Source of the DNA: Planctomycetota bacterium
GTDB taxonomy: Bacteria; Planctomycetota; Phycisphaerae; UBA1845; Fen-1342
Assembly: GCA_016235145.1 (NCBI GenBank)
Contig: JACRLV010000055.1
Span: 1 to 33,009 of the forward strand
Direction of reading: 5' to 3'
DNA: 33,009 nucleotides
This document shows, piece by piece, positions 15,617 to 23,186 of this stretch. Both the position numbers and the translations under genes were made by a program. Below the pieces are notes generated by a model. That model worked only from the letters and a program-made list of their open reading frames with translations. It searched no databases and had not been told where the DNA came from. Numbering within the stretch: the stretch's first letter is position 1; each line of letters begins with the position of its first letter.

Positions 15617-18600
15617 ATGAGCACCGGCTACGATCCAAAGGCATTTGAAAACGAGATTTACGCGGCGTGGGAGGCCGGCGGGTATTTTCACGCCGAGCCG
15701 GATCCGAGCCGCCAGCCCTACGTCATCACGATCCCGCCGCCGAACGTCACCGGCGCTCTGCACCTCGGTCATGCCCTGAACAACACGCTTCAGGACATCC
15801 TGATCCGCCGCAAGCGCATGCAGGGATTCAACGCCTGCTGGCTGCCGGGGACGGACCACGCGGGCATCGCGACGCAGGCGGTGGTGGAGCGGCGGTTGAA
15901 GGAAGAGCAGGGCCTCAGCCGGCACGAGGTCGGCCGCGAAGGGCTCGTCAAGAAAATCTGGGAATGGAAGGAAGACTACAACGCCCGCATCCTGAACCAG
16001 CTCCGGCGGATGGGTTGCTCGTGCGACTGGCAGCGGACGCGCTTCACACTCGACGAGCAATGCGCGAAGGCGGTGTACGAGACGTTCTTCCGGTTCTTCA
16101 AAGACGGGCTCATCTATCGCGGGCTGCGGCTGGTGAACTGGGACACGCAATTGCAGACGGCCGTCGCGGACGATGAGGTGTACCACGAGACGGTTCGCGG
16201 GAACTTGTGGCATATTCGGTATCCGATCGTGCGGGGACAAGGAAACAAGGAAACAAGAGAACAAGGGAGCAAGGGGAGTGCGGGCGTCTCGCCCGCAGGT
16301 GTGGCTAGCACAACGAGCGCGGGTGGCATGGCGAATGCGGGTGGGGCGGGCAAAGCCCACCCATTTTGTGTTGCTGCCGCTGATGAACCGGCCGATTCCG
16401 ATCGTCGCCGACGGAATGTTGGTGAAAAAGGAATTCGGCACCGGCTGCGTGAAGGTGACGCCGGGACACGATCCGAACGACTATGCGTGCTATCAGCGGA
16501 AGCTGGGGCAGCCGGACGAGATCGGGATCATCGATTTGCTGACGCCGGACGGGAAAGTCAATGAAAACGGAAACGCAAGGGTAGGAGATGTGGGGCCGGC
16601 CTCTGGCCGGTCTCATACCCTGGACGCGTCCGATCACCGAAGAGACCGGCCAGAGGCCGGCCCCACATCTTCCCAGGCTGGATCCGCATGTGCGGAACCG
16701 GGTAGTTACGCGGGCATCAAGAAAGAGGAGGCCCGCAAGAAGGTCGTCGCCGACCTCGAAGCACTCGGCCTGCTGGAGAAGATCGAACCATACGAGACCG
16801 AAATCGGCCACAGCGACCGCAGCAAAACGCCGATCGAGCCGCTGCGCAGCGAGCAGTGGTTCGTGAAGATGGACAAGCTGGCCGAGACGGCGATGGAGGC
16901 GGTGCGCGACGGCCGCGTGCGGTTCTTTCCAGAGCGCTATGCGAAGACCTACCTCGACTGGCTCGGCGAAAAACGCGACTGGTGCATCAGCCGGCAGCTC
17001 TGGTGGGGGCATCGGATACCGGTGTGGACGAAGCGGATGTCGCTGGCTGAGTGGTCCGCGCTGTGCGACCACGATATCTGGGCGTCCATGTTGCTGGGTT
17101 GCGGCCAAGACAAAAGCGTCCGCGTAGAAACCGAAAGTGGGCAGTCGTTCTTGATATCAGGCAGCGACCGTGATTGCGAGTCCGCATTTCTGATGCGCGA
17201 CAGCGTTCCGCGCAGCGAGGCTCTGACTTGGCGTGTCTGTCTTCGCGATTCGGCGATGACATGGGCTGTCGAAGCCAGACCTGAAGACAAGAACTGGGTG
17301 CCGCCGAGGCAGCAGCTCATCACGGCGAAAGATTGGCTCGAGCGTAATGGGTTTGAACAAGACGCTGACGTGCTCGACACCTGGTTCAGCTCCGCGCTTT
17401 GGCCGCACAGCACGTTTGGATGGCCATCCGAACAGGCACGAAGGCACGAAGGCACGAAGGCACAAAGGGAACAGAAAGAGGCCGCGTCTTCACCCTCCGT
17501 GCCTCCGTGCCTCCGTGCCTCCGTGCCTTCCGACCTGGACTATTTCTATCCCACGAGCGTCCTCTCGACCGCCCGCGAGATCATCACCCTCTGGGTCGCG
17601 CGGATGGTGATGACCGGGCTGTACAACGTCGGCCGCGTGCCGTTTCAGCATGTGTACATTCACGCGGTCATTCAGGACGGCCACGGCCGCCGCATGAGCA
17701 AGTCCGCCGGCAATGGCGTCGACCCGCTCGACATCATCGACGCCTACGGGGCGGACGCCCTGCGTTTCACGCTGGCCCAGCTCGCGACTGAGACGCAGGA
17801 CATCCGCATTCCGGTGAAGCCGATGCAGCTTCCCGACGGCCGCACGGTGAACACGAGCGAGAAATTCGAACTCGGCCGCAACCTGGTCACCAAGCTCTGG
17901 CAGGCCGCGACGGGGTTTTTGATCCCCACGTGCAGAGATGTGCGAATCAAGGCAAGTCCGGTGACCGCGGTGTCTCCGGCACTGCCGAAGGGTTCTGCAA
18001 TAGAAACCGGGCAGGCCGGGAAAGTGTGGAACCGGCCAATGGCCGGTGATCTGGGCGGGTCGGCGAGCACAGCGATCAGTGGTCAAGACCATTCGGCGGT
18101 GGGCTCGCACCGGCCATTGGCCGGTGCCACACCTCCACACAATGCCACACCTCCACACAATGCCACACCTCCACACAATGCCACATCCCCACACAATGCC
18201 ACACCCCCACAGAATGCCACACCCCCACACAAGGCCACAGCTCCACATAATACCACGGCTCTACACAATGCCACAGCTCCACACGGTGCCGCACTTCCAG
18301 ATGGCGGCACTTTGCAGCTGCACACCGCGCGCCGCCCCGGCGAAATGCCGCTCTTCGAGAAATGGATTCGGGTGAAGCTGCTGGCCTGCATTCGCGAGGT
18401 CGATCGGCGGCTGGAGCAGTACGAGTTTTCCGCCGCGGTCGATGCGATCCGCACGTTCTTCTGGAACGACCTGTGCGACTGGTACATCGAAGAGGTGAAG
18501 AGCCACCTGCGCGACGCCGGCGCCGACGAGGACGAGAGGAACGACGTCAAGATCACGCTGCTCCAGGTCTTCGACATCGTGCTGTGCCTGTTCCACCCGG

Positions 18601-19505
18601 CGATTCCGTATGTGACGGAGGCGGTCTGGGCGGAGATCGGCCGCGAGATTCCGCGGCACCATGAGCTGATCTGGCCGGAAAATGCGCCCTCACCTCGACC
18701 CTCTCCCGGAGTACCGGGAGAGGGGGTGCCTCAAGTACCGCAGCCGCCCTCGGCTGCCAATTCGGCCCCGCGCGCTGGCGCTTGGGGCTCGGATTGCCCG
18801 GATAAGGCGCCGATGCTGATTGCGATGCCGTGGCCCAAGGTCGCGACGGATCGACAGATGAGCTCGGCGGACGCGGGCTGGCTGAACGAGGTCGCTGGCC
18901 AAACCGCCGCTGAGCGCGAGGTTGACGCGTTTCTGGCGGTCATTCGCGGCCTGCGCGAGATTCGCACCAGCCTCAACGCGATCCGCTCGCAGGCCAGGCA
19001 GCCTGCCCTGCGCAACTTGCCCGCCGCCGTGATTCGCTGCGACGCGGCGACGGCAGCCCTGCTGCGCGAAGGCGAGGCGACGATCACGCGGCTCGGGCAG
19101 GTGGAGAAAGCGGACGCGGCCAAGCCGGGCTGCGGCCTGACGATCAGCCCCGACGCCGCGAAGCCGCCCCAATCGATGAGCCGCGTGCTCACGCTCGCGT
19201 GCGCCGATCCCGGCGAGCGAACCGCAACGGTCCGAGCCCGAAGCGCAAGCGAGGGGACCGCATCAACCACGATCGAAATCTTTGTGCCGATCGCCGGGCT
19301 CGCGGACATCGAAATCGAGCGCAAGCGGCTCGGCAAGGAACGCGACGAGGCCTCCGCCGCGCTTCAGCGCCTCGACGCGAAGCTGGCGAATCAGGGTTTT
19401 GTGGCGAAAGCCAAGCCCGAGGTGATCGAGGCCGAGCGAGCCCGCCAGAGCGAGCTGAAGGAAAAGCTGGCGGCGATCAAGCGCAATCTGGCGGAGTTGG
19501 GATAG
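15617..19505 (+). CDS. valS: Valyl-tRNA synthetase, split over two frames (15617..~16235 in frame 2, ~16366..19505 in frame 3), with multiple embedded repeats
   Basis: Frame 2: MSTGYDPKAFENEIYAAWEAGGYFHAE...PPPNVTGALHLGHALNNTLQD...PGTDHAGIATQAVVERRL...LVNWDTQLQTAVADDEV...WHIRYPI. Frame 3: VLLPLMNRPIPIVADGMLVKKEFGTGCVKVTPGHDPNDY...DWCISRQLWWGHRIPVW...DVLDTWFSSALWPHSTFGWP...MSKSAGNGVDPLDIIDAYGADALRF...C-terminal coiled coil IERKRLGKERDEASAALQRLDAKLANQGFVAKAKPEVIEAE. Confidence 0.93.
16233..16366 (+). repeat. valS module 1: purine-rich ~8-bp repeats plus GCGGGCG-TCT-CGCCCGC palindrome
   Basis: ggacaaggaaacaaggaaacaagagaacaagggagcaaggggagtgcgggcgtctcgcccgcagg...; palindrome at 16280..16296. The valS homology changes frame across this segment. 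Confidence 0.75.
16586..16670. repeat. valS module 2: 29-bp perfect inverted repeat
   Basis: AGATGTGGGGCCGGCCTCTGGCCGGTCTC (16586..16614) and its exact reverse complement GAGACCGGCCAGAGGCCGGCCCCACATCT (16642..16670), 27-nt loop. Confidence 0.95.
17435..17528. repeat. valS module 3: opposed 8-bp minisatellites
   Basis: (GGCACGAA)n at 17435..17464 and (GTGCCTCC)n at 17496..17528; the arms are near reverse complements, one mismatch per 8-bp unit. Confidence 0.85.
18025..18131. repeat. valS module 4a: 24-bp inverted repeat, each arm itself near-palindromic
   Basis: TGTGGAACCGGCCAATGGCCGGTG (18025..18048) versus CACCGGCCATTGGCCGGTGCCACA (18108..18131): reverse complements with one mismatch. Confidence 0.9.
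18126..18305 (+). repeat. valS module 4b: ~10 tandem copies of an 18-bp unit encoding ATPPHN
   Basis: GCCACACCTCCACACAAT x3, then progressively diverged copies; peptide GATPPHNATPPHNATPPHNATSPHNATPPQNATPPHKATAPHNTTALHNATAPHG. Confidence 0.95.
18685..18803 (+). repeat. valS module 5: same modules as the ftsY-valS spacer, different order
   Basis: CCCTCTCCCGG-AGTA-CCGGGAGAGGG (18699..18724), GTACCGCAGCCGCCCTCGGCTGC, then GGCCCCGCGCGCTGGCGCTTGGGG; read in-frame as SPRPSPGVPGEGVPQVPQPPSAANSAPRAGAWGSD. Confidence 0.9.
19215..19270 (+). repeat. valS module 6: short insert encoding RARSASEG
   Basis: CCGAGCCCGAAGCGCAAGCGAGGGGACCGC at ~19232..19261, just before the conserved IFVPIAGLADIEIER segment. 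I recall RARSASEG-type translations in planctomycete hypothetical proteins, but no second copy was found in this window. Confidence 0.5.
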
Positions 19506-19512
19506 CGCGGCG

Positions 19513-21339
19513 TTACTTGATTGTGCGGTCCTGCACGTCGATGTTTGCGAGCAGCCAGACCTCGGGGTCGGCGAGCACAGACGACGGTTGGCCCGGCAGG
19601 GGGATCTCCACGGTCGTCTTGCGCGACGTGATCCGCATGCGCTCGTCATGATCCGTGTCGCCGACTTTGAATCGCAACTCCAGCGGCAGGTCGAACGGCG
19701 GGTGAGCGTCATCGATTCGCTGTCGCTGCTCGATCTCGACGCGCAGCGATTTCTCCTCGGCGTTCCACGCATGCGTCACGAGCAGCCGCGGCACGCCGTC
19801 GCGATACGACCACTGGTCAAAGAACGGCCGAAGATCGCGCACGCTGACGTATTCAAACGCGGAGCGCAGGTCCGCCGTGTCGATCGCGTCGAAGCGGTGT
19901 TGTTCGAGTAGGCGATGCACGCCGCGCCAGAATGTTTCGTCGCCGAGTTCCCGACGGAGCATGTGCAGCACCCACGCGCCCTTCCAGTAAATCAGGCCGC
20001 CGCCGAACCCATAGATATCCACCGGCCGCGCGATCTCCTCGTTGACCATCGGGCGCGACCGTCCGGCCCGGTCGAATCGCCCCACCATGCCGCGGCTTCG
20101 GGCAAGTTCGCGTCGCAGCGCTTTCGGTCCGTCGATCTCCGCCTGCCAGAGCATGTGCAGGTACGTTCCGAAGCCCTCGTTCACCCAAGCCTCGGTGATG
20201 TGCCGGTAGTTCACGATTCCCGCGAACCACTGGTGCGCCGCCATGTGCGCCAGATACGAATACCGAACCCAATCCGCCCGCGGATTCGCCGTGAATGACG
20301 TCGGAGCGATCATGTCCAGGCCGGCGTGCTCCATCCCGCCGTGAAAGTGCTTCGGCACGACGACGTGCGAATACCGCGGAAACGGGTATGGCGTACCGGT
20401 CAGCTTGGCGAAGTGCGCCAAGGTCGCCGGGGCGTCGGCGAACGCTTCCTTCGCCTGTTCCGCGTACTCGGCCTGCGTGTACATGAAGATCGGGACGCCC
20501 GCGGATTCGCATTGAATCTCCTCGTAGCGCCCGATCGCGAACCCGAACAGGTGCGGGTCGATCGGAACATCGAGCCGCCAGGCGAAACGGGCCTCATTTG
20601 TCGGAGGCGGTTCGGCCTTCGCCGGCTCGCCGACCGCGACGCAGCGCAGACCCGTGGGGACGGTGAAAATCGCGTCAATGCCGCGCCAGCGCGTGTCGGG
20701 CCAGTCGTGGCAAGGCAACCAATAGCGGGCCTGAAGCGGCTCGGCGTTGCTGTAGATCACGAAATCGTCGTCCGCAAGCTCGCCGACGAAGTGCAGCCCG
20801 AGCCTCGGGTTTTCCACTCGATACTTGATGCGGATGTGCTCCTCGTCGCCGACGCGCAGCCGCCGCGGCAGCCGAATCGTGAGCTGATCCTCGTCGTAGG
20901 AGAATTCAGCGGGCTTCGGCGGCTCGCCAACCGCGACGGTTTGGATGGTCATTCCGACCGCGTTCAACTCGACGGACGCGACGCCGTCGCGCCGGGCGCG
21001 GATGGAATGCGTGACCGTCGCGGACATCGCTTTTTCTGCGATATCGCCGGCGGTGAAAACCGCTTCGAAGCGCATGCGACCGAAGTCAAGATCGCAAGGC
21101 GGTGATCGAAATTCGCTCCCCTTCGGCGCCGACGCGGGAGCAGAGGCGGGCGCGGAAGCGGCGGGCGCCGTGGCGGGGGCACTGGTTCGATTGGGCGTGT
21201 CGTGAACCGGCGGCATGCCGGCGGGAATTTCACGCGGCTGGTGCCGGCAACCGGCAAAGTGGATCGTGATCAACAGAACGAAGATTCGTGAGAAAAGAGC
21301 CGGTGGCGCGGGGCGTCTTTCGGATTTCATGCGGATCAT
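19513..21339 (-). CDS. M1-family (aminopeptidase N-like) metallopeptidase homologue, putative lipoprotein, with altered catalytic motif
   Basis: Lipobox-like IHFAGC; FHGGMEHAGLDMIAP; HMAAHQWFAGIVNYRHITEAWVNEGFGTYLHMLW; YWKGAWVLHMLRRELGDETFW; FFDQWSYRDGVPRLLV. Confidence 0.85.
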   Translation of the reverse strand: MIRMKSERRPAPPALFSRIFVLLITIHFAGCRHQPREIPAGMPPVHDTPNRTSAPATAPAASAPASAPASAPKGSEFRSPPCDLDFGRMRFEAVFTAGDIAEKAMSATVTHSIRARRDGVASVELNAVGMTIQTVAVGEPPKPAEFSYDEDQLTIRLPRRLRVGDEEHIRIKYRVENPRLGLHFVGELADDDFVIYSNAEPLQARYWLPCHDWPDTRWRGIDAIFTVPTGLRCVAVGEPAKAEPPPTNEARFAWRLDVPIDPHLFGFAIGRYEEIQCESAGVPIFMYTQAEYAEQAKEAFADAPATLAHFAKLTGTPYPFPRYSHVVVPKHFHGGMEHAGLDMIAPTSFTANPRADWVRYSYLAHMAAHQWFAGIVNYRHITEAWVNEGFGTYLHMLWQAEIDGPKALRRELARSRGMVGRFDRAGRSRPMVNEEIARPVDIYGFGGGLIYWKGAWVLHMLRRELGDETFWRGVHRLLEQHRFDAIDTADLRSAFEYVSVRDLRPFFDQWSYRDGVPRLLVTHAWNAEEKSLRVEIEQRQRIDDAHPPFDLPLELRFKVGDTDHDERMRITSRKTTVEIPLPGQPSSVLADPEVWLLANIDVQDRTIK

Positions 21340-21413: not shown

Positions 21414-22193
21414 CTACAGTTCAGGCCGATCGGCCTGTTTTTCAAACGTGCGCGACCATTGCAATGCCCAGAGTTTTCGCAGCGGAATCAGGGCTGCGTG
21501 GCCGTCCATGAACGCGATGTTCACGTTGCGATCGTGCCGCGCGATGCAGAACCGGCCCATGTGGTAGGGGTATTCGCCGTTGCCGCGCCAGCCGATGGCC
21601 AGATCGGTGGGAATCGTGTCGGTGTGCGTCGGCCATCCGTCGACCCAGTTGCCGTCGGCGAAGGCCGGCACCTCCGACGCGTTTGGAACGCTCGATATCG
21701 TCAGCCACCACGACCGCGTATACGGCGCGGGCGTGAAGTTGGGTTGCGGATCGCCGCGATAGGGCGTGTAGAGGAATCCGTTCATCGTGTAGCTGCCGGT
21801 CTGAAGCTGGAAACGCCAGCCCTGGTCGGCGGAGCCGAAGATGTACGCACCCGCACCGGGATACTGGGTTTTCGCGTTCGGGCAGAAGCGCAGGTCGGTG
21901 ATGTTCAGGTGGTAGGGTTGAAGGGCCTTGAGGTAGATGTGGTTCGGGTCGTAGGGAAAACACCGGTCCTTGAAGTCGTCGCCATACTGCCGCAGCGCGA
22001 TCGTGAGCTGGCGGACCTGCGAGGAGCAGACCGCCCGTTTGCCGCGTTCGCGCGCGGCGGACATCGCGGGCAGGAGGATGCTGATCAGGAGCGCCAGAAT
22101 CGCGACCACGACCAGAAGCTCGATGAGCGTGAACGCGCGCGAGTCGCCGGATTGCAGCAACTGCGACGGCGGACGTCTGGTCCCAAGGCACAT
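21414..22193 (-). CDS. Prepilin-type N-terminal cleavage/methylation domain protein (pseudopilin-like)
   Basis: ATG at 22193 inside the longer ORF; SRAFTLIELLVVVAILALLISILLPAMSAARERGKRAVCSSQVRQLTIALRQYGDDF; C-terminal NVNIAFMDGHAALIPL. Confidence 0.88.
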   Translation of the reverse strand: MCLGTRRPPSQLLQSGDSRAFTLIELLVVVAILALLISILLPAMSAARERGKRAVCSSQVRQLTIALRQYGDDFKDRCFPYDPNHIYLKALQPYHLNITDLRFCPNAKTQYPGAGAYIFGSADQGWRFQLQTGSYTMNGFLYTPYRGDPQPNFTPAPYTRSWWLTISSVPNASEVPAFADGNWVDGWPTHTDTIPTDLAIGWRGNGEYPYHMGRFCIARHDRNVNIAFMDGHAALIPLRKLWALQWSRTFEKQADRPEL

Positions 22194-22439
22194 GTCTGGC
22201 TTGCCTCTCGTGGAACGAAATACGCAGCGGACTTGCGTCAGGTCGGCCGCCCAGCAGCGGCGCGACCCGAATCCAGTATAGCTGAAAGCACCGCCATCGC
22301 GGCTGGGACGGCGATGATGCGCGGTTTTCCGGCCGAAAACCTGAAAATAGCGTTGACCCGCGCTTCGGAGGCCACGATACTTTGGCGCAGGAGAAGGAGT
22401 CGATGCGCCAGTAACGCATCGGCCTGAGGAGGAGTTCCC

Positions 22440-23186
22440 ATGCGTCATTGGATTATCGCGGTCTCTGTCTGCGCGCTCGTTAGCGCTCCCGCCACGGCGG
22501 ACATTCTGTACTTCACCGATCACGGGGCCTTCACGCAACACAACGAAGCCGTCGGAAAGTTCCTGAAGGGAGTGGAGGATTTCGAGGAATCGAGCGCGGG
22601 CCCGCAGGAGAAGATCCCATTCCCCAACTCCTTGCAGAACGGCGTGCCGCGGCCGACGTTTCCGAACGGCATCGACGCGACCAACCTCATCATCCAGACG
22701 AACATCACGCCGGGGCCGTGTCCACCGACGCCGAACCCGTCGACGAACGACCGGGCGCTTTGGGTGAATGGACCCGGATTCATCGGCTCGAACAGCATCA
22801 AGATCGGAACGGATGAGTTTCTGTACGGCCTGTTTTCGAGCATCGATTTGATCTTCACGTCGCACGACAAGACCGCCGTCGGCGTGGATGTCTCGACCTT
22901 CACCGGCTACAACCAGGGCCACCAGGGTTTTGTGTTCTGCGTGTACGACGACAGCGACAATGTTCTCGGCACGTACACCATGTCCGGCCCGACGCCGACC
23001 GAACCCGCCAAGAACTTCTTCGGCGTCTGGTCGAGCACGCCGATCGGCCGCGTGAACATCTGGGGCATTTTTGATGCGCCGCAGCCGTTCGCCGTCGACA
23101 ACATCGAAATGTGGGTTCCCGAGCCGAACAGCCTCGTGCTGCTCGCGGCTTTGGGCGCCGTGGCGGCGCAGCGACGCCGGAACTGA
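22440..23186 (+). CDS. PEP-CTERM sorting-domain protein
   Basis: Signal peptide MRHWIIAVSVCALVSAPATA; C-terminus VPEPNSLVLLAALGAVAAQRRRN (PEP + hydrophobic helix + Arg-rich tail); GGAGG upstream of the ATG. Confidence 0.85.
   Translation: MRHWIIAVSVCALVSAPATADILYFTDHGAFTQHNEAVGKFLKGVEDFEESSAGPQEKIPFPNSLQNGVPRPTFPNGIDATNLIIQTNITPGPCPPTPNPSTNDRALWVNGPGFIGSNSIKIGTDEFLYGLFSSIDLIFTSHDKTAVGVDVSTFTGYNQGHQGFVFCVYDDSDNVLGTYTMSGPTPTEPAKNFFGVWSSTPIGRVNIWGIFDAPQPFAVDNIEMWVPEPNSLVLLAALGAVAAQRRRN

Follow-up and report, generated by a model that had tools for sequence, protein, structure and literature searches.

The window analysed here, a 33,009-nucleotide stretch of a Planctomycetota genome (contig JACRLV010000055.1), carries on its minus strand a gene for a homologue of the M1 metallopeptidases in which the HExxH motif reads HMxxH. 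The protein exceeds the Pfam cut-offs for both M1 domains, scoring 103.9 bits for Peptidase_M1 (cut-off 27.7) and 30.4 bits for Peptidase_M1_N (cut-off 25.8), and GC content by codon position in the open reading frame is 0.67/0.47/0.80. The gene and its features are:

19513..21339, minus strand: M1-family homologue with HMxxH, 608 aa, ATG to TAA (Pfam PF17900 and PF01433, codon-position GC, AlphaFold2 model)
21247..21339, minus strand: N-terminal hydrophobic segment ending FAGC31, a probable export or lipoprotein signal (from sequence; the lipobox is a match by eye only)
20692..21042, minus strand: Peptidase_M1_N domain, residues 100-216 (Pfam)
19810..20433, minus strand: Peptidase_M1 catalytic-fold domain, residues 303-510 (Pfam)
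20740..20742, minus strand: E200, clade-invariant, aligned within YxxxEPLxARxWxPC with the Glu that in M1 enzymes holds the substrate amino terminus (alignment)
20551..20553, minus strand: H263, a clade-fixed His, Tyr in 30/30 HExxH relatives (alignment)
20326..20349, minus strand: HFHGGMEH, residues 331-338, the GxMEN equivalent, with E337 and the clade-fixed H331 and H333 (alignment)
20233..20247, minus strand: HMAAH, with zinc-ligand histidines H365 and H369 and with M366 in place of the catalytic Glu (translation, alignment)
20242..20244, minus strand: codon of Met366, ATG (nucleotide sequence)
20176..20178, minus strand: E388, equivalent of the third zinc ligand (alignment)
20155..20157, minus strand: H395, a clade-fixed His seven residues past the zinc Glu (alignment)
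19987..19989, minus strand: Y451, equivalent of the M1 transition-state tyrosine (YWKG) (alignment)

The initial annotation had described an HMAAH motif with a Met codon at the catalytic position, a distal Glu 18 residues further on and retained GGMEHAG and FFDQW segments, and each of these readings is confirmed. HMAAH (20247-20233) occupies residues 365-369 of the minus-strand frame, the codon at 20242-20244 reads ATG, E388 follows H369 at the described spacing, and GGMEHAG (residues 334-340) and FFDQW (506-510) are both present. The window protein is predicted to adopt the M1 fold, as an AlphaFold2 model from a 34-row alignment has a mean pLDDT of 86 (exceeding 90 over most of the folded region, weaker at 58-85 around residues 331-360), and its best PDB matches by Foldseek are IRAP and ERAP1 (E ~1e-40, query TM ~0.77). 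Sequence matches are obtained to IRAP, ERAP1 and LTA4H; in contrast to these structures, the protein has no general base and no long helical domain IV, and identity in the structural alignment is ~19%. It is probably exported, membrane-anchored or periplasmic. C-terminal HEAT repeats are found in three clade relatives, whereas the window protein lacks them and ends at the M1 core. Its stop (19513) adjoins the convergent stop of valS at 19505.

In a search yielding 60 relatives, the closest by far are proteins from three genomes that share the window's Phycisphaerae-affiliated family but represent other genera, with the aligned motifs HMLAH, HMIAH and HMLGH. The window protein is ~40-43% identical to these three, pairwise identities among all four range from 40 to 50%, and 139 of 516 columns are invariant in the clade alignment. 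Conservation of Met in close homologues, which the initial annotation had proposed to examine, is borne out in 4/4 clade members, whereas the other aligned relatives have Glu at this position without exception (30/30). Given that the four proteins agree in this Met while differing at most other positions, this sharing is more than chance. In a maximum likelihood tree of 34 proteins from which the HMxxH columns were left out, the four proteins lie on one side of a 100/99-supported branch, with a long stem (0.92 substitutions per site), and adjoin 24 HExxH proteins. As the four form one clade, the data are explained if Glu was lost once and never regained.

The distribution of this clade appears to be narrow. 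A scan of ~85,000 species genomes, keyed on two other conserved peptides so that divergent members could escape, retrieved the three relatives again and no further members; their genomes are the MAGs Planctomycetota CSMAG_2679, Planctomycetota Modern_marine.mb.222 and Phycisphaerae Bin_15R. When 114 genomes of the order were searched with a profile, the four HMxxH proteins scored 1016-1464 bits and the next protein 505 bits. In sampled sets with one genome per species, where strongly diverged sites would be missed, the pattern H-M-x-[GA]-H-x-W-F retrieved exactly the four proteins among 27 family genomes, and a looser HMxxH pattern had matches only in the window's family among 392 phylum-wide and 397 class-wide genomes. 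A wider HMxxH distribution was rejected within the genomes covered, as pattern searches and genome scan gave the window's family only. At least one HExxH M1 paralogue is encoded in each of the four clade genomes and could supply the peptidase work. Judged from the aligned sequences, a narrow lineage of planctomycetes has naturally lost the M1 general base, and the loss is real and conserved.

The remainder of the active site combines retention with extensive replacement. The zinc ligands, which the initial annotation had considered to be kept, are invariant across the four members (H365, H369 and E388), as are E337, E200 and Y451. The HExxH sister group has 101 positions conserved at ≥90%; the clade keeps 47 of these, is fixed for a different residue at 14 and varies at 40. 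The fixed switches within active-site motifs include E366M, D374G, T377N, C378Y, F331H, N338H, L362Y and T343M, while Y263H sits in the N-terminal domain. Fixation in the clade extends to H333, H395 and W452. The GxMEN motif is GGMEH in all four proteins, Asn being replaced by His, a state also found in HExxH relatives (L029-L034) and thus not specific to the clade. H333 immediately precedes GGMEH and, read from the gapless motif, corresponds to Tyr267 of LTA4H, a residue that packs against the substrate (PMC8954237). HExxH homologues from the same order (e.g. L009, L049 and L050; ~30% identity) share the Peptidase_M1_N and Peptidase_M1 layout, the zinc ligands, GGMEN or GGMEH and the catalytic Tyr. 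These homologues have a long C-terminal region, as do three of the four clade members but not the window copy, which has no HEAT tail, and they retain HExxH, D374, T377 and C378 where the clade has HMxxH, G374, N377, Y378 and extra histidines. Taken jointly, the changes (D374G, T377N, C378Y, Y362, W452 and four or five histidines) exceed the needs of a simple loss of catalysis.

We favour, with a probability of roughly 0.6 and by analogy with characterised M1 enzymes, the interpretation that the protein is an exported M1 pseudo-aminopeptidase which binds peptide N-termini. The putative zinc site, the two glutamates that would hold the amino group (E337 and E200) and the tyrosine that would polarise the scissile carbonyl (Y451) are kept, so that a peptide N-terminus could still dock. 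With Met replacing the general base that would activate the zinc-bound water, hydrolysis would be abolished or proceed very slowly, and the protein would act as a binder of peptide or protein N-termini, possibly in sensing, buffering or presenting exported peptides. In M1 enzymes the Glu of HExxH is the general base (PMC9177663, PMC5648829). Its replacement in Ap-B (E326A/Q/D/H) leaves 0% activity (PMC2241622), in agreement with the loss of normal peptidase activity predicted in the initial annotation, and LTA4H E296Q is inactive yet binds tripeptides in crystals (PMC9177663, PMC5648829). By analogy with these mutants, peptide N-termini should be bound by the clade proteins but not turned over. 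Like the clade, the LTA4H E296Q and Ap-B E326 proteins lack the general base and have intact zinc ligands, peptide binding having been shown for LTA4H E296Q; however, they are engineered single changes, whereas the loss in the clade is natural, fixed and surrounded by further fixed changes.

A precedent is yeast Tma108, the single M1 pseudopeptidase given in a review of inactive metallopeptidases, in which HExxH is still present (PMC11266112). It is likewise proposed to bind protein N-termini non-enzymatically through the M1 pocket (PMC11266112). In contrast to Tma108, which keeps HExxH and lacks one substrate-binding residue, the clade has lost the catalytic base and kept the binding residues, and it is bacterial, probably exported and of a different lineage. 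No paper on HMxxH metallopeptidases was found in a literature search. If correct, the binding interpretation would provide a clear-cut example of a peptidase converted to a binder with zinc site and amino-terminus pocket preserved, and the four clade proteins would allow testing of what else changes once M1 catalysis is given up.

A less probable, tentative explanation of the additional replacements is that the protein is still an enzyme with altered chemistry or an altered metal site, in which E337 or His 263, 331, 333 or 395 polarises water, a non-peptidase reaction is performed, or Met and His residues aid a different metal. In or near its active-site motifs the clade has four fixed histidines that none of the 30 HExxH relatives has, together with M366 and M343, and H333 occupies the substrate-packing position noted above. 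Furthermore, both Glu271 and Glu296 of LTA4H form hydrogen bonds with the zinc water (PMC8954237), suggesting that this water could still be polarised by the retained E337, and LTA4H is an example of an M1 site performing non-peptidase chemistry. Set against this, Ap-B shows no peptidase activity even when its Glu is changed to Asp or His (PMC2241622). More doubtful again is a rebuilt M1 zinc site, in which Met has replaced the base and active-site motifs have gained a further Met and four or five histidines, and which would accommodate a different or second metal or catalyse a reaction beyond the N-terminal peptide bond. That the protein is an ordinary aminopeptidase which tolerates Met and is slow would fit the retention of every other catalytic residue but is improbable, as the Ap-B Glu mutants are dead (PMC2241622), Met is unable to serve as a base and the residue is fixed rather than drifting.

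Loss of function through decay of the gene is less probable still. The absence from the window copy of the HEAT region found in three relatives would be consistent with decay; however, the reading frames are intact in four genera, the protein is conserved while silent sites are near saturation, and conservation is highest at the active site. Invariant positions constitute 46/83 (55%) of the active-site segments, which we picked around known motifs, compared with 93/433 (21%) elsewhere (p=1.7e-9). Between clade members, identity is 0.59-0.69 at second codon positions and 0.40-0.52 at fourfold-degenerate sites, against 0.34-0.37 expected from third-position composition. With the active site most conserved and silent sites approaching saturation, the clade is under protein-level selection and not decaying, and pseudogene decay was rejected on codon-position constraint. 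By these substitution patterns, the pocket without a general base is one that remains under purifying selection. A sequencing, assembly or frame error at the Met codon, which the initial annotation had allowed for in case relatives carried HExxH, is scarcely credible even in a fragmented assembly (392 contigs, 82% complete) with a broken valS frame alongside, as a change from GAG or GAA to ATG takes at least two base changes and the error is ruled out by HM[LI][AG]H in genomes from three other genera, each assembled independently.

Gene context was compared across the four HMxxH loci, and no conserved operon partner was found; thus, context points to no ligand. In the window the M1 gene is neighboured by valS and by a gene for a DUF1559-type protein with an N-methylation (pseudopilin) motif (21414-22358, minus strand), which adjoins the M1 gene region, and a PEP-CTERM protein is encoded nearby at 22440-23186 on the plus strand. 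In two of the four genera only, the HMxxH gene is flanked directly upstream (L035:1608-5071 and L036:5512-9032) by pcm, coding for a protein-isoaspartate methyltransferase (PCMT) with a signal-like N-terminus, followed by a gene for an 850-aa multi-spanning membrane protein with a weak match to polyamine aminopropyltransferase. A functional link to this pair was considered and rejected, as the aminopropyltransferase-like gene is absent from the window's genome (G000) and from G011 and is present in many genomes that have no HMxxH protein. At the remaining locus, L037, the neighbours resemble recR and secA as read by eye.

The adjacent valS gene (15617-19505, plus strand) is split, its profile match covering 15620-16246 and resuming at 16365 in another frame with profile positions 210-243 missing. 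No match in the 82%-complete assembly reached the valS cut-off, and the break may be a real disruption or an assembly fault. Between the two parts lies a dispersed repeat with 23 partial matches in the genome. Further downstream, at 18125-18299, an 18-bp unit is tandemly repeated in 9.7 copies, in frame within valS, so that an ATPPHN-type peptide is repeated.
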